From contig JAJDCS010000008.1 of the NCBI GenBank assembly GCA_029260715.1, positions 1 through 59,982 of the forward strand: DNA of 59,982 nucleotides. Direction: 5' to 3'. A model generated the notes under the pieces. That model saw nothing but the letters and a program-made list of their open reading frames with translations, was not told where the DNA came from and did no database searches. Source of the stretch: Phycisphaeraceae bacterium (GTDB lineage: Bacteria; Planctomycetota; Phycisphaerae; Phycisphaerales; Phycisphaeraceae). Position 1 is the first letter of the stretch. Every line of letters starts with the position of its first letter. The translations under genes were made by a program, and so were the position numbers. This document shows, piece after piece, positions 9,810-39,334 of the stretch.

Positions 9810-10382
9810 ATGGCGGTTCTTTGTGATACCCAAATCCGTGAATTGATCCCGATCGAGCCATTCGAGGACAACGTCAAGCGGGCTGGGCGCGTCTCGTATG
9901 GCGTGTCGAGCTACGGGTACGACGTGCGTGTGGGCACGGTGTTCAAGATATTTACTAACGTCTCGCCCACCGGCGGGCAGGCCGTCGTGGACCCCAAGAA
10001 ATTCACGGACGACTCGTTCGTCACGGTCGACACCGCCAACACAGGCAAAGACCACGTGATCATCCCGCCCAACAGCTTCGCGCTGGCCGAGACGGTCGAG
10101 GTGTTCGACATCCCGCGAGACATCCTGGCCATCTGCGTGGGCAAGAGCACCTACGCGCGCTGCGGGATCATCGTCAACGTCACGCCGCTGGAGCCCCAGT
10201 GGCGCGGCAAGGTGACCATCGAGATCAGCAACACCACGCCGCTGCCGGCCAAGATCTACGCCAACGAGGGCATCGCCCAGATGATCTTTCTTAAAGCCGA
10301 CCGTGTCTGCGCGGTCAGCTACGCGGATAAAGGTGGCAAGTACCAGAACCAGGGGGGGCTAACACTTCCAATGGTCGATTAA
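9810..10382 (+). CDS. dcd: dCTP deaminase
   Basis: A 190-residue enzyme that deaminates dCTP to dUTP, feeding dTMP synthesis. The family core is intact: [30 protein letters not shown] with the catalytic Glu, and the nucleotide-binding region [10 protein letters not shown]. The ATG at 9810 follows a good ribosome site (GAGGAG), so it is preferred over the GTG at 9789. ThyX and B12-dependent ribonucleotide reductase in the same window complete a route to dTTP. Whether it also has dUTPase activity cannot be judged from the sequence. Confidence 0.95.
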
Positions 10383-10414
10383 ACCCCTTTCTGTGAGCCC
10401 GAGGTATGGTTGCC

Positions 10415-10963
10415 ATGAAACGACAATACGCCAAGCCGCTATTGGAGCCGGATGTGCTGTGTCTGTACCGCCGGCCCGGATCGGTCGTCGCCCAGTTGGT
10501 GCGTGCCGGCCGGTGGGAAGGCGCCGCCGTGGGCTACGCGCCCGACACGGACAGCCAACTGCTCTACCACCGCTTCATGCGAACCCAGCCGCACGTGGGC
10601 CCGCTGGCGGGGGTCAACGAGCAACACCTAGTCGAGCTCCCCGAAGACGCGTCGGCTTACGAGATCGCCGCGGTGTTCGTCGAGCAGCTCGCCGGCGACG
10701 CCAAGATCGCAGACGACGGGGCACGGCTGTTGGAGCGCATCCCCACACTGGCCGGCCCGGTGCGCGTGGAGGTCATGGTCCCCCCCGGCCCGAATTGGCG
10801 GTGGGTTGTCCAGATCAACGGCAAGCAGGTGGCTAGCACCGAAGCCGACTGGCACGTGGACGCGCTCAAAGACCTAGCCAACCACCTACGCGACAAGGCG
10901 GAGGGGTTGGCGATGAACGAACCGAACGGCAGGATTGATCTGAGCTCGCTGACGGTGGAGTGA
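10415..10963 (+). CDS. Unknown protein between dcd and nrdJ
   Basis: 182 residues with no recognised domain. The ATG at 10415 is 9 nt after GAGGT, so it is chosen over the in-frame ATG at 10406. The sequence is soluble, mixed alpha/beta and without a signal peptide. The C-terminal half (VRVEVMVPPGPNWRWVVQIN) ends in a helix (DWHVDALKDLANHLRDKAEG). It starts 32 nt after dcd and is probably co-transcribed with it. A role in nucleotide metabolism is only suggested by position. A 147-residue frame at 10393-10836 is a shadow of this gene. Confidence 0.7.
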   Translation: MKRQYAKPLLEPDVLCLYRRPGSVVAQLVRAGRWEGAAVGYAPDTDSQLLYHRFMRTQPHVGPLAGVNEQHLVELPEDASAYEIAAVFVEQLAGDAKIADDGARLLERIPTLAGPVRVEVMVPPGPNWRWVVQINGKQVASTEADWHVDALKDLANHLRDKAEGLAMNEPNGRIDLSSLTVE

Positions 10964-11190
10964 AGCAGGGGGGCTGTGCCCGTTTTGCGATGGATGGTCC
11001 GCCGGATGGCGGACCCTACGAAAAAACAGGAGCCGACCACCACGAGCCGCGACCGTAAGGGAGCGGTCACGAATAAGAAAGAAGTTTACTGCGTCGCCGC
11101 CGGGTGCCACTGGCAGCTTGCTGCCAGTGTGGGACGACAAAAAGGTTAGATCGCCACTGGCGGGCGAGCCGCCAGTGGCACACAAAATTA
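10964..11190. repeat. Cluster of palindromic repeats upstream of nrdJ
   Basis: Four hairpin-forming units lie in 200 nt: GGTCCGCC/GGCGGACC (10996-11015), the dispersed family repeat (11043-11068), CACTGGCAGC/GCTGCCAGTG (11108-11129) and an 11-bp stem GCCACTGGCGG/CCGCCAGTGGC (11153-11179). None is followed by a U-run, so they look like REP-type elements rather than terminators. Confidence 0.75.
11043..11068 (+). repeat. Dispersed 26-bp repeat, copy 1
   Basis: The core CGACCGTAAGGGAGCGGT is shared with copies at 41068-41093, 44865-44890, 50073-50098, 50233-50258 and, in altered form, 53358-53392. It can fold as alternative CCGC/GCGG or GACC/GGTC hairpins. Confidence 0.8.
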
Positions 11191-11248
11191 GTTAACAAGC
11201 TCGTCGGTGCACGGACGCACCGGCGGGCTCTTTGGGTTAAACGTCCGT
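11191..11248 (+). ncRNA. Structured nrdJ leader with predicted pseudoknot
   Basis: A 12-bp helix (11199-11210 with 11217-11228, two G-U pairs) closes a 6-nt loop ACGGAC. That loop is complementary to GTCCGT at 11243-11248, giving an H-type pseudoknot. An outer helix TTAAC (11192-11196) with GTTAA (11236-11240) encloses the hairpin. The structure ends about 10 nt before the purine-rich ribosome site of nrdJ, so it could control translation. No B12 box was found, so it is not an obvious cobalamin riboswitch. A candidate nrdJ RNA motif has been described upstream of such genes, but I cannot confirm a match. Confidence 0.5.
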
Positions 11249-11279
11249 CACAATTAGCCAAGAAAGGGCACGCCGCCAT

Positions 11280-14200
11280 ATGAAAATCGAACGCCGATTC
11301 ACGACAGCAGACACGGACGTTTTCGAAACAGTGGAATGGACTTCGCGGTCGTGCAAGATCTCCAATCTTGACGGCTCAACGGTTTTCGAGATGAACGACG
11401 CCCAGGTGCCGTCGACCTGGTCGCAGCTCGCCACGGACATCATGGTCAGCAAGTACTTCCGCAAAGCGGGCGTGCCGCAGACCGATGAGAACGGCGATAC
11501 GCTGCACGACGACAACGGTAAGCCGGTGACCGGCCCGGAGCGGTCGGCCCAGCAGGTCATCGCGCGCCTGGCCGGCTGCTGGAAGCATTGGGGCGAGAAG
11601 CACGGGTATTTCGATACCGCCGAGGACGCCCAGGCGTTCCACGACGAGCTGGCGCACATGATGCTCCACCAGATGGCCGCGCCCAACAGCCCGCAGTGGT
11701 TCAACACCGGGCTTTCCTGGGCGTATGACATCACCGGCCCGTCGCAGGGGCACTGGATCACCGACCCCGTCACGGGTGAGACGCGCCTGGCCGACGACGC
11801 GTACAGCCACCCCCAGCCGCACGCTTGCTTTATCCAATCCGTCAACGACGACCTGGTCAACGAAAGCGGGATCATGGACCTGTGGGTGCGTGAGGCGCGC
11901 CTGTTTAAGTATGGCTCGGGCACCGGGACGAATTTCTCCAAGCTCCGAGGAGAAAAGGAGCCGCTGTCGGGCGGCGGCAAGAGCTCCGGGCTCATGAGCT
12001 GGCTGCGGATCGGCGATCGTGCCGCCGGGGCGATCAAGTCCGGTGGCACGACCCGCCGAGCCGCGAAGATGGTCTGCCTCGACATGGACCACCCGGACAT
12101 CGAGGCGTTCGTCGACTGGAAGGTACGCGAAGAGCTCAAGGTCGCGGCCATGGTCGAGGGGGCCAAGCATTTTTCGGACGACCTAAAAGAGGCAGCCCAG
12201 TCGCTCGGCTTAAAGCTGGACTACGACTTCAACGGCGAGTCGTACCAGACCGTCAGTGGGCAGAACTCGAACAACTCCGTGCGCATCGGCAACGACTTCT
12301 TCGCCGCGTTGGACCACAACGACGAGTGGTCGCTGGTCAACCGCACCGACGGGAAGGTGGACAGGAAGCTGCCCGCCAGACAGTTGTGGGAGAAGATCGC
12401 CTACGCAGCGTGGCGGTGCGCCGACCCGGGCGTGCAGTTCGATACGACGATTAATCAGTGGCACACCTGCCCGGAGTCGGGGCGGATCAACGCGTCGAAC
12501 CCGTGCAGCGAGTACATGTTCCTGGACAACACGGCTTGCAACTTGGCGTCGCTGAACCTGCTGAAGTTTTTCGATTCTAAGGAGCGGGCGTTCGACGTGG
12601 ACGGCTTTGAGCACGCCACGCGCTTGTGGACGGTGGTGCTGGAGATCAGCGTGCTGATGGCGTCTTTCCCGAGTCGTGAGATCGCCCGGCTCAGTTATGA
12701 GTACCGCACGCTTGGCCTGGGCCACGCCAACATCGGGGCCATGCTCATGCAAGCGGGCATCCCATACGACTCAGACCAGGGCAGGGCTGTGTGCGCGAGC
12801 ATCACCGCGATCATGACCGGTCGCAGCTACGCCACCAGCGCGGAGATGGCCTCGCAGCTTGGGCCGTTCCCGGGGTATTACCCCAACCGTGAGGCCATGC
12901 TGCGCGTCATCCGCAACCACCAGCGCGCCGCCCACGGCGTGAATGATGCCGTGGACGCATCGCGGGTCGGCCTGGACGACTACGAGGCGCTGGACATCCC
13001 CCCCGTGCCGATCGACAAGGTGTGCTTGCTTGAGCCTGTCCAAGACGTCGGGCAGATCGCCAACGCCCCGACGCTGGTCGAGCGAGCGGGCGTGGCGTGG
13101 GACGAGGCGCTGAGCCTGGGCATCCGCTACGGGTACCGCAACGCTCAAGCCACCGTCATCGCGCCCACCGGCACGATCGGCTTGCTCATGGACTGCGACA
13201 CCACCGGGCTTGAGCCGGACTTCGCGTTGATCAAGTTCAAGAAGCTGGCAGGCGGCGGGTATTTCAAGATCGCCAACCAGTCGCTGCGTCCGGCGTTGGA
13301 GAACCTGGGCCTCAATGACGAGCAGGTCCGCGACATCATGCGATACGTGCTGGGTCGATTGGACCTGGGCGTGCCCATGCCGGGTCAGGCGGTGGTCACC
13401 GCAGGCGACCAGAGCAACGAGCCCCAGACATTTGCGGACTTCTTAAAAGACAAAGGCCTCAACGACGAAGACCTGCGCAAGCTCACCGATTCACTGCCAA
13501 CCATATTCGAGTTGGCCCACGGGTTCACAGCCTGGACGCTCGGCGAAGAGGCCATGGAGCGGCTTGGCATCAGCGAAGCGGATATCCAGTCAGCGGGCGG
13601 CAGCGTGCTCAAGGCCCTGGGCTTGAGCGGCGCGCAGATCGACGCGCTGAACCGCGTGATCTGCGGCACGCAGACCGTCGAGGGCGCCCCGCACCTCAAA
13701 GACCAGCAACTGCCCGTGTTCGACTGTGCCAACACGTGCGGCCCAACGGGCAAACGGTTTATCTCCACGCAAGGGCACATCCGCATGATGGCCGCCGCCC
13801 AGCCGTTCATCTCCGGGGCGATCAGCAAGACGATCAACCTGCCCAACGCCGCCAGCGTGGACGACATCAAGTCCTCCTACCGGCTTAGCTGGGAGCTCGG
13901 TTTAAAGGCCAACGCCCTGTACCGCGACGGGTGCAAGCTCAGCCAACCGCTGAACACCAAAGCCGACGCGGACGACGGCGTCGAGGACGAGGAGGCCATC
14001 GAATTGGGAAAGGAAGAGGTCGCTACCGAGGTGGCGGCTGTGGCTGGCCGCGTGGCGGCTGCGGTGAGTGACGAAGAGGCGATCGAGGCGGACGCGGATG
14101 AGCCAACCGGCATGAAAGAGATTATTAAAGAAAGGGTCCACACGGTCGAAAAGATCGTCGAGCGCGTGGTGGAGCGCCCGTTGCGGCGGCGCCTGCCCGA

Positions 14201-15095
14201 CACGCGCAGCAGCGTCACCCACAAGTTCAACGTGGCCGGGCACGAGGGCTACCTCACCGTCGGGCTGTACGAAGACGGCACGCCGGGCGAGCTGTTCATC
14301 ACCATGGCCAAAGAGGGCTCGACCATCGGCGGGCTGATGGACTCGCTGGGCACGGCTGTGAGCGTGGCGCTGCAATACGGCGTGCCGGTCGAGTCATTGG
14401 TCACCAAGTTTACCCACCAGCGGTTCGAGCCTGCGGGCATGACCCACAACTCGGACATCCCGTTCGCTAAGAGCCTGGTGGATTACATCTTCCGGTGGAT
14501 GGGCATGGAGTTCATCCCCGGCTACCGCGCTGCCAACGCCCCAATGCGGCTGCGTCAAGCGGACGTGGAGATTTCACTTGAAGACAGCGACGAAGCCGAG
14601 GCAAAGGCTTCCAGTGAAGCGCTGACACACGCACCCGAAGCGGTAAGGCGTGATCTACGCGACCACGCTGACACGCAAGACCGCGACGCGGATCAGCCAG
14701 AAGCCGCCTCACCACCCCGCCACGTCACGGCGGAGACGGCTGAAGCCGACCACGGCGACGCAGACACTTCAAAAAAACCAGCCGGGCAGAGCGGCCAAGG
14801 CGTTACAGACCCCAAGGCCCGCATCGAGAAAAGCTTGCTGGACCTGCTGCGTCGTGGCGCAACGCAGCCCCAACGCGACAAGAACGCGACCGCAGCTGCT
14901 GAGCAGGCCAAGACAAGCCCGCAGGGGCAGAACGTGCATATCCGCACCAAGGTTTCGGCGTCCGCCACGCTGGCCACCGCGATGACCCACGTGCAGGCCG
15001 ACGCGCCGGCGTGCGACGTGTGCGGGACCATTACCGTGCGCAACGGTACCTGCTACAAGTGCTTGAACTGCGGGAACTCAATGGGTTGCAGTTGA
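11280..15095 (+). CDS. nrdJ: Adenosylcobalamin-dependent ribonucleotide reductase (class II)
   Basis: A 1271-residue enzyme that reduces ribonucleotides to deoxyribonucleotides with adenosylcobalamin and no oxygen requirement. Seen: the redox cysteine C183 in HACFIQSV; the finger-loop motif NPCSE with C409 and E411; the substrate-binding segment APTGTIGLLMDCDTTGLEPD; and a C-terminal cysteine cluster in the last 28 residues (CDVCG, CYKCLNCG, MGCS) expected to bind zinc and re-reduce the active site. Residues about 895-960 and 1095-1200 are charged, probably flexible linkers, which makes it longer than minimal NrdJ proteins. A purine-rich ribosome site precedes the ATG. The leader contains a predicted pseudoknot. 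Confidence 0.97.
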   Translation: MKIERRFTTADTDVFETVEWTSRSCKISNLDGSTVFEMNDAQVPSTWSQLATDIMVSKYFRKAGVPQTDENGDTLHDDNGKPVTGPERSAQQVIARLAGCWKHWGEKHGYFDTAEDAQAFHDELAHMMLHQMAAPNSPQWFNTGLSWAYDITGPSQGHWITDPVTGETRLADDAYSHPQPHACFIQSVNDDLVNESGIMDLWVREARLFKYGSGTGTNFSKLRGEKEPLSGGGKSSGLMSWLRIGDRAAGAIKSGGTTRRAAKMVCLDMDHPDIEAFVDWKVREELKVAAMVEGAKHFSDDLKEAAQSLGLKLDYDFNGESYQTVSGQNSNNSVRIGNDFFAALDHNDEWSLVNRTDGKVDRKLPARQLWEKIAYAAWRCADPGVQFDTTINQWHTCPESGRINASNPCSEYMFLDNTACNLASLNLLKFFDSKERAFDVDGFEHATRLWTVVLEISVLMASFPSREIARLSYEYRTLGLGHANIGAMLMQAGIPYDSDQGRAVCASITAIMTGRSYATSAEMASQLGPFPGYYPNREAMLRVIRNHQRAAHGVNDAVDASRVGLDDYEALDIPPVPIDKVCLLEPVQDVGQIANAPTLVERAGVAWDEALSLGIRYGYRNAQATVIAPTGTIGLLMDCDTTGLEPDFALIKFKKLAGGGYFKIANQSLRPALENLGLNDEQVRDIMRYVLGRLDLGVPMPGQAVVTAGDQSNEPQTFADFLKDKGLNDEDLRKLTDSLPTIFELAHGFTAWTLGEEAMERLGISEADIQSAGGSVLKALGLSGAQIDALNRVICGTQTVEGAPHLKDQQLPVFDCANTCGPTGKRFISTQGHIRMMAAAQPFISGAISKTINLPNAASVDDIKSSYRLSWELGLKANALYRDGCKLSQPLNTKADADDGVEDEEAIELGKEEVATEVAAVAGRVAAAVSDEEAIEADADEPTGMKEIIKERVHTVEKIVERVVERPLRRRLPDTRSSVTHKFNVAGHEGYLTVGLYEDGTPGELFITMAKEGSTIGGLMDSLGTAVSVALQYGVPVESLVTKFTHQRFEPAGMTHNSDIPFAKSLVDYIFRWMGMEFIPGYRAANAPMRLRQADVEISLEDSDEAEAKASSEALTHAPEAVRRDLRDHADTQDRDADQPEAASPPRHVTAETAEADHGDADTSKKPAGQSGQGVTDPKARIEKSLLDLLRRGATQPQRDKNATAAAEQAKTSPQGQNVHIRTKVSASATLATAMTHVQADAPACDVCGTITVRNGTCYKCLNCGNSMGCS

Positions 15096-15669: not shown

Positions 15670-16365
15670 ATGGAACCGCTGATTGTTACGCTCGACGGCC
15701 CGGCCGGGTCGGGTAAGTCGACGGTCGCCGGGCTGTTGGCCAAGCGGCTGGGGCTGGAGCTTCTAGACACCGGCGCGATGTACCGCGGGCTGACCGCGTG
15801 CTGCCTGGACCGGGGCATCGATCCGGCCAGCCAACCCGATGCGGCGATGGACTTGGCCAAGCGGGTCTCGGTGCGGTTTGACTGGGGGGGGCACCCGCCG
15901 CGGCTGTACGTGGACGAACGCGACGTAACCGATCGCCTGCGCGACGCGGACGTGACCGCCAGCGTCAGCGACATCGCGTCGATGAGCGACATCCGGATGG
16001 TGCTGGTCAAAGCCCAACGTCAGATCGCCGAACACCACCCCCGGCTGGTGACAGAAGGGCGGGACCAGGGGTCGGTGGTTTTCCCCAAAGCGGCGGTGAA
16101 GTTTTATTTAGACGCCAACCCACGCGTGCGAGCGGCCAGGCGCGCTGCCCAGTTGCGCGAATCGGGGCGACCCGCCGATGAAGAAAAGATCCTTCAGCAG
16201 ATCACCCGCCGCGACCACCGTGACGCCAACCGGACGGACGGGCCGTTGATCTGCCCCGACGACGCGATCAAAGCGGATACGTCCGACTTACCGCTGGACC
16301 GGGTCGTTGACCTGCTTGAACAAAAGGTCCGCCAAGCCGTGGGCGACCGCCTGGGGCCGAACTGA
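15670..16365 (+). CDS. cmk: Cytidylate kinase
   Basis: A 231-residue enzyme that phosphorylates CMP and dCMP. The Walker A motif GPAGSGKST is at residues 8-16. The family markers LLDTGAMYRGLT and TEGRDQGSVVFP, and the lid region RRAAQLRESG, are present. The start ATG has no Shine-Dalgarno sequence. A -10-like TACACT lies 8 nt upstream, so the message may be leaderless. The stop overlaps the plsC start (TGATG), a pairing seen in many bacteria. Confidence 0.96.
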   Translation: MEPLIVTLDGPAGSGKSTVAGLLAKRLGLELLDTGAMYRGLTACCLDRGIDPASQPDAAMDLAKRVSVRFDWGGHPPRLYVDERDVTDRLRDADVTASVSDIASMSDIRMVLVKAQRQIAEHHPRLVTEGRDQGSVVFPKAAVKFYLDANPRVRAARRAAQLRESGRPADEEKILQQITRRDHRDANRTDGPLICPDDAIKADTSDLPLDRVVDLLEQKVRQAVGDRLGPN

Positions 16366-39032: not shown

Positions 39033-39152
39033 ATGTTCAGGGTTGTGCAGCCTAACCGGGGCCGTATTGACCGGTCAGCAACCGTTTTTCTACTTTCTAT
39101 TGACGCCGCCCATCGGGCAAGCTAGAGTTACTCTAACAATTTGGTTACGCGA
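39033..39152. other. Promoter region of the riboswitch-controlled sulfur operon
   Basis: Contains the end of the nuoB transcript region and the promoter at 39100-39128. A short palindrome AGAGTTACTCT (39124-39134) overlaps the start of the transcript. Confidence 0.55.
39100..39128 (+). promoter_or_regulatory. Sigma-70-type promoter of the SAM-riboswitch operon
   Basis: TTGACG (39100-39105) and TAGAGT (39123-39128) are separated by 17 nt, placing the transcript start about 20 nt before the riboswitch P1 helix. Confidence 0.65.
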
Positions 39153-39334
39153 CTTATCCAGAGTGGCTGAGGGTAGGGCCCTACGACGCCACCGCAACCG
39201 CCTCCGCAAGGGGGAAATGGTGCGAAGTCCCGCCTCCGTTGACCGATACGAACCGCGGCTTAACGCCTCGGTCCCTGGAATCTTCCGGGGGGTCACGGTA
39301 GGGCAGATAGGAAGCGGCTGAACTCCCCCCGGAA
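39153..39334 (+). promoter_or_regulatory. SAM-I type riboswitch with alternative pairing element
   Basis: The aptamer core matches the S-box consensus: CTTATC closing with GATAGG (39306-39311) as P1, AGAGTGGCTGAGGGTAGGGC, the GCAACC segment at 39194-39199, and GGTGCGAAGTCC at 39219-39230. A long extra arm lies between P3 and the P1 3' strand. TTCCGGGGGG (39283-39292) in that arm can pair with CCCCCCGGAA (39325-39334) downstream, competing with an internal CCCTGGA/TCCGGGG hairpin. This is a plausible switching device. It controls the threonine-synthase-like gene 105 nt downstream. Confidence 0.87.

Follow-up and report, generated by a model that had tools for sequence, protein, structure and literature searches.

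The window, the whole stretch of 59,982 nucleotides that was analysed, belongs to a Phycisphaeraceae genome of 44 contigs (G000, the own genome below) and carries nrdJ, a gene for class II ribonucleotide reductase. This gene is flanked on the same strand by a dCTP deaminase-like gene (9822–10382) and a cytidylate kinase gene (15670–16365), which together make up a nucleotide-metabolism cluster; an open reading frame at 10406–10963 sits between the deaminase-like gene and nrdJ. A palindromic, REP-like repeat, GCCACTGGC...GCCAGTGGC, occupies positions 11102–11183, directly 5′ of the hairpin discussed here, and has 30 more partial match rows in the genome, some of which are both strands of one place. 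Further along, a SAM riboswitch aptamer (RF00162, 54 bits) is located at 39151–39252 on the + strand. The nrdJ locus contains the following features:

11192..11196, + strand: 5′ half of the outer helix, TTAAC (in the window; without conservation in relatives)
11198..11210, + strand: left arm of the conserved hairpin, AGCTCGTCGGTGC (sequence; covarying stem in 19 aligned leaders including the window)
11211..11216, + strand: hexaloop ACGGAC with exposed GGA (sequence, alignment, triplet enrichment)
11217..11229, + strand: right arm of the conserved hairpin, GCACCGGCGGGCT (sequence; covarying stem in 19 aligned leaders including the window)
11236..11240, + strand: 3′ half of the outer helix, GTTAA (in the window; without conservation in relatives)
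11243..11248, + strand: GTCCGT, proposed pseudoknot partner of the loop (in the window; without conservation in relatives)
11263..11268, + strand: AAAGGG, without GGA, probable ribosome-binding stretch of nrdJ (from the sequence)
11280..15095, + strand: nrdJ, class II (B12-dependent) ribonucleotide reductase, 1271 aa (PF02867, PF08471, TSCPD domain)

The hairpin at 11198–11229 comprises 13 pairs, two of them G-U, and lies 50 nt upstream of the nrdJ ATG at 11280; the preliminary description had seen it as a continuous 12-bp hairpin, one pair too few. That description also proposed an outer helix and a pseudoknot between the loop and a complement 15 nt downstream. The segments for both are present in the window: TTAAC and GTTAA make up a helix of 5 bp, and all six bases of GTCCGT are complementary to ACGGAC, at a distance of 13 nt past the hairpin. 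When the 53 nt downstream are shuffled, a six-base Watson–Crick match to the loop arises in about 0.3% (1/300) of cases, so that it is unlikely by chance, as had been claimed, for one preselected hairpin, and less so for a hairpin picked by eye from 60 kb. In a program that leaves pseudoknots out of its model, positions 11186–11260 fold at −29.5 kcal/mol, whereas shuffled versions average −18.4 and none of 200 reaches so low a value (z −3.86); the predicted ensemble probability of an unpaired GGA in the window leader is 1.00. There is no GGA between the hairpin and the nrdJ start in the window, and a scan of 10900–11400 found no sigma-70-like promoter. Searched as DNA against the 61 genomes, 87 bases of the leader returned the window itself and otherwise weak short matches (best E 0.0025).

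A longer fold of the leader in the window, in an anti-ribosome-site form, reaches −38.5 kcal/mol, compared with −37.6 kcal/mol when the 13-bp hairpin is enforced. A switch of this type was rejected for lack of conservation, since pairing of the right arm with the ribosome site averages −8.4 kcal/mol in 18 other leaders and −9.0 and −9.1 in swap controls. The hairpin is also among the candidates of a terminator scan; an intrinsic terminator or attenuator was rejected, as the tail CTTTGGGTTA is poor and a U-run is not common to the leaders of relatives (L021 has one).

nrdJ was matched in 58 of the 61 genomes, C-terminal fragments counted; many of these relatives are metagenome-assembled genomes, and among named records those whose nrdJ is most similar come from planctomycetes, for the most part Phycisphaeraceae/Phycisphaerales. 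In genus g19, genomes G018, G063, G065 and G066 give only weak matches to this nrdJ, while the full match in G064 falls together with a sequence of family f6 on the tree, a pattern suggestive of replacement, transfer or a binning error. The leaders compared comprise 39 from the own family (f1), six from family f6 and 30 from four other families of the order (f2–f5). A leader passed the hairpin test if it contained, within 110 nt of the start, a hexaloop A-N-xyz-N on a stem of seven or more pairs, in which one mismatch was tolerated. Excluded from the test were the second nrdJ fragment of G010, which sits at a contig end (L084), and any genome lacking an nrdJ start; the L063 leader was taken from codon 2. 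The leader of G004 (L013), which also contains a stretch similar to the repeat at 11102–11183, has a hairpin of 12 pairs at −170, outside the 110 nt, and was scored as a miss in this test and in the density comparison below.

With GGA as the triplet xyz, the test is passed by 15 of the 39 f1 leaders (the other 24 fail it), 4/6 f6 leaders and 1/30 f2–f5 leaders. The 63 other triplets give means of 0.048, 0 and 0.032 leaders, respectively, and 200 dinucleotide shuffles give means of 0.15 (maximum 2), 0.005 (maximum 1) and 0.065. When there is no selection on pairing, at least six of eight flanking pairs are found at 22 of 39 A.GGA. sites between −100 and −36 of the 45 f1 and f6 leaders, as compared with 18/610 for A.xyz. 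sites with another triplet; the corresponding figures for the 30 f2–f5 leaders are 2/5 and 15/362. The hairpins are concentrated in front of nrdJ. At 28 loci, the last 110 nt before the gene (3.1 kb) contain 14 sites, or 4.5 per kb, against two hairpins in 36.2 kb (0.055 per kb) in an upstream control that begins beyond −180 and extends from there to −1500. The 138 kb that follow, counted from the start codon, yield 11 hairpins (0.08 per kb). In two families outside the order, 1/20 leaders has a hairpin, 22 nt before the start. Among 80 named loci, a site with seven or more pairs occurs within 120 nt in six, and in five of these it lies 50 nt or more upstream; these five correspond to G032, G014, G053, G064 and G034. 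The last of these genomes (leader L075) is that of Poriferisphaera heterotrophicis ZRK32, a carrier available in culture, described in PMC10945688 as a cultured bacterium with a single polar flagellum. Across 50 rows, the NrdJ tree requires hairpin state to change nine times, so gain and loss of the hairpin are frequent.

An alignment of 19 rows (A1) differs from the set of 19 carriers in that L018, with its site at the ribosome site, is out and L029, with five pairs, is in; a second alignment, A2, consists of 17 A1 rows, without L021 and L080. Both-side changes occur at 10/10 stem pairs of A1, and 87.4% of the cells are paired, compared with 29–49% in slid controls; since the rows were partly picked for pairing, this covariation adds less than the triplet-enrichment and flanking-pair tests. 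The A, GG and A of the loop are invariant in 19/19 rows, which were picked for containing them. The arms vary between genomes and the loop hardly does: many f1 and f6 leaders share the hexaloop A-N-G-G-A-N, with C or T mostly as the last base. The loop-closing pair is U-G in 11 of the 19 rows, its first base being U in 11, C in seven and A in one, and the loop starts 50–61 nt before the start codon in 15/19 rows. The predicted ensemble favours the stem with exposed GGA in 14 of the 19 carriers and shows no strong preference in five. Past the hairpin, an AT-rich CATAA or GATAA, often followed by ACG, is found in L015, L016, L019, L027, L029, L031 and L074. Guanidine-II RNAs have ACGR-type loops; a likeness to them was rejected, because loop position 2 varies and GGA does not.

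The covariation expected of homologous leaders is thus found in the hairpin stem, while the pseudoknot and the outer helix stay at chance level. The best Watson–Crick match between loop and downstream sequence averages 2.83 nt in the 18 other leaders and 3.05 nt in the swap control, in which downstream parts are exchanged between genomes (4.17 and 4.15 with G-U allowed); for the outer helix, the average in relatives is 3.67, against 3.66 for the control. The hairpin with its loop is far above chance in relatives and is judged real; the other two elements are features of this one leader sequence only, by chance or by local refinement. The earlier reading is right as to a structured, covarying and probably regulatory leader of the B12-dependent reductase, and its pseudoknot and outer helix are not supported as functional features.

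The loop resembles the binding site of the RNA-binding regulator CsrA. The CsrA/RsmA consensus is RUACARGGAUGU, and contacts of RsmE give CANGGANG, as reported in PMC6849547. The SELEX results given in PMC7652899 place GGA mostly within six-base loops, on stems of no more than four contiguous pairs in most winners. The loop of the window with its closing C-G pair, CACGGACG, matches CANGGANG, and its GGA, the triplet enriched over the 63 others, stands within a hexaloop of a hairpin. The CsrA gene (PF02599) is present in 61/61 genomes and that of FliW in 59/61; both being nearly universal, their presence shows no contrast with presence of the hairpin among the 61 genomes. The hairpin is not essential for nrdJ, because 24 of the 39 f1 leaders fail the test and families f2–f5 are almost without it, yet all 61 genomes tested have CsrA. 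The gene order in the own genome is fliW, csrA, flagellin. Its CsrA, of 87 aa, matches solved CsrA/RsmE-type chains, best the carbon storage regulator homologue 5dmb, which we take to be a complex with FliW; it has L4 and R44, residues through which CsrA contacts RNA.

A second site 10–63 nt away, near the ribosome site, is not strictly defining for CsrA sites and is absent from the window; a single-site CsrA target is described in PMC7652899. GGA is found between −30 and +6 in 4/19 carriers against 16/26 non-carriers, and a ribosome site like AGGGG or GGGGT in 11/19 against 5/26. As counts, the GGA figures suggest that GGA at the ribosome site may trade off against a hairpin further upstream; the tree offers two independent pairs on supported branches for this comparison. 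In four genomes of one genus (L018, L020, L230, L231), the hairpin GGCC-ANGGAC-GGCC lies 27 nt before the start and is accompanied by a second GGA loop further upstream, at about 90 nt from the start and longer than six bases in three of the four.

Twenty-four csrA loci from f1 and f6 genomes served as an internal positive control, a flagellin start being found behind csrA in 23 of them. All 23 flagellin leaders carry an ANGGAN hexaloop on 5–7 contiguous pairs, 13–15 nt before the start, in a hairpin that covers the ribosome site; GACAATC-AAGGAG-GATTGTC is exact in 17. Because flagellin leaders of the same genomes carry it, the grammar of the nrdJ loop is that of a known kind of CsrA target. 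In addition, of the 24 csrA leaders, which comprise L249 (G000:C30) and 23 related ones, 13 contain an ANGGAN hairpin with at least five contiguous pairs within 110 nt, which suggests autoregulation of CsrA in this lineage.

A 26-position model (R2), trained on nrdJ leaders only, has three hits within E 10 when run on the own genome. The first is nrdJ itself, a training row (26.1 bits). The second (18.0 bits, E 2.8, not significant alone) lies 19 nt before a flagellar rod-type gene, whose product scores above the cut-off of PF00460; this leader reads CCCGC-ACGGAC-GCGGG and then CCCAC-AAGGAG-GTGGG over the ribosome site. The third is weak (15.9 bits). In the 61 genomes, under stricter filters with which the nrdJ of the window itself was lost, nrdJ leaders account for 12 of the best 23 rows (E up to 0.028), namely 11 training rows and one site further upstream (G004), and the other 11 rows are not at nrdJ. 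Inspection of 18 non-nrdJ loci showed that L301 (G011) precedes a gene with an N-terminus near-identical to that of the rod gene and that L277, L278, L294 and L297 lie 20–30 nt before an open frame; the remaining ones are without a clear leader position.

A GGA-loop hairpin thus recurs before nrdJ in genomes that contain CsrA, FliW and flagellin genes and their sites. We infer that the hairpin is transcribed and bound by CsrA, and likewise the direction of control discussed below. It is probably a CsrA binding site in the nrdJ 5′ leader, controlling synthesis of the class II reductase. It is unlikely that the GGA hairpin is a site for some other protein or serves only the stability of the 5′ end of the mRNA, its likeness to CsrA sites having arisen by convergence. 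Such an origin would suit the mostly single site without GGA at the ribosome site and the absence of the hairpin from many CsrA-bearing relatives; against it stands the occurrence of this hexaloop class, in the same genomes, before flagellin, csrA and flagellar rod-type genes.

A palindromic DNA operator or part of a promoter is a less likely explanation still, although a vaguely −10-box-like stretch, CATAAACG or similar, follows the hairpin in several relatives. All 10 stem positions keep their complementarity although the arms change in sequence, what stays fixed is the loop, which is not palindromic, and the same loop grammar recurs over the flagellin ribosome site; moreover, the closing pair is most often T-G in DNA terms, and this U-G pair of 11/19 rows favours RNA over a DNA palindrome.

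The preliminary description considered that the leader may sense a nucleotide, B12 or another ligand. At gathering score, Rfam, in a set of 4227 families which may or may not include the nrdJ motif, has no match in the nrdJ leader of the window, its three matches in the window lying elsewhere, or in 20 nrdJ loci of related genomes. With the limit relaxed to E 10, the 301-nt leader matches only a miRNA model, which falls on the palindromic repeat, and, on the opposite strand, a CRISPR-repeat model below threshold. A ligand-sensing pseudoknot is not supported and very improbable: it has in its favour the perfect loop complement and outer helix of the window and the riboswitch control known for a ribonucleotide reductase gene elsewhere, and against it the chance level of both elements in 18 relatives, the Rfam result and a recurring part, a bare hairpin with one fixed trinucleotide, that appears small for an aptamer.

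If the hairpin is a CsrA site, the stem would only present the hexaloop A-N-G-G-A-N, its last base mostly Y, and a CsrA dimer would hold the exposed GGA. In Bacillus, FliW and flagellin govern free CsrA (PMC7652899). The level of free CsrA may likewise be set here by FliW and unexported flagellin, since csrA has fliW and flagellin as its neighbours and the same grammar spans the ribosome site of the flagellin leader; nrdJ output would then rise or fall with the state of flagellum assembly. Translational repression by CsrA is somewhat probable and likelier than protection or activation of the mRNA, which is possible. Because the window lacks GGA at the ribosome site, repression would have to proceed from a single upstream site; blocking of the ribosome site is plausible but does not follow from the anatomy, 5′-end protection being the alternative.

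DNA synthesis begins with ribonucleotide reductase, and discussions of how the enzyme is controlled usually centre on NrdR, riboswitches and allostery. If CsrA acts on nrdJ, this control would gain an input that is post-transcriptional and linked to the flagellum, and nrdJ is probably a new target of a known kind of CsrA site. Among the open-access papers listed for CsrA with ribonucleotide reductase, nrd or nrdA, or with Planctomycetes, titles and abstract beginnings contain no such link, and a text search of the CsrA papers PMC7652899 and PMC4894983 did not find the word "ribonucleotide". A more speculative and rather doubtful extension is a checkpoint beyond motility, in which CsrA, FliW and flagellin would set synthesis of the B12-dependent reductase and so couple flagellum assembly to the supply of DNA precursors; if true, it would be a possible link between motile state and replication.

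The nrdJ RNA motif and AdoCbl (cobalamin) riboswitches are leader RNAs of ribonucleotide reductase genes; the present leader is unlike them, having no gathering-score match in Rfam either in the window or at the related loci. It is closer to the hairpins of the CsrA/RsmE family, such as those of glgC, RsmZ and Campylobacter flaA (SL1/SL2): it shares with them the GGA hexaloop, the closing C-G pair (U-G in many relatives) and a covarying stem in a 5′ leader, and CsrA is encoded in the genome. It differs from them in its target, nrdJ, in its long stems of up to 13 pairs and in having usually one site, mostly 50–61 nt before the start, without GGA at the ribosome site. The flaA mRNA of Campylobacter has two such hexaloops, the second covering the ribosome site, according to PMC4894983. 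With the CsrA–FliW–flagellin checkpoint of Bacillus hag and Campylobacter flaA, the present system has in common the regulator genes fliW, csrA and flagellin and the class of loop; the flagellin leader of the checkpoint has its hairpin over the ribosome site, whereas that of nrdJ is upstream of the ribosome site in most carriers. The leaders L018, L020, L230 and L231 resemble the classical dual-site arrangement of CsrA targets.
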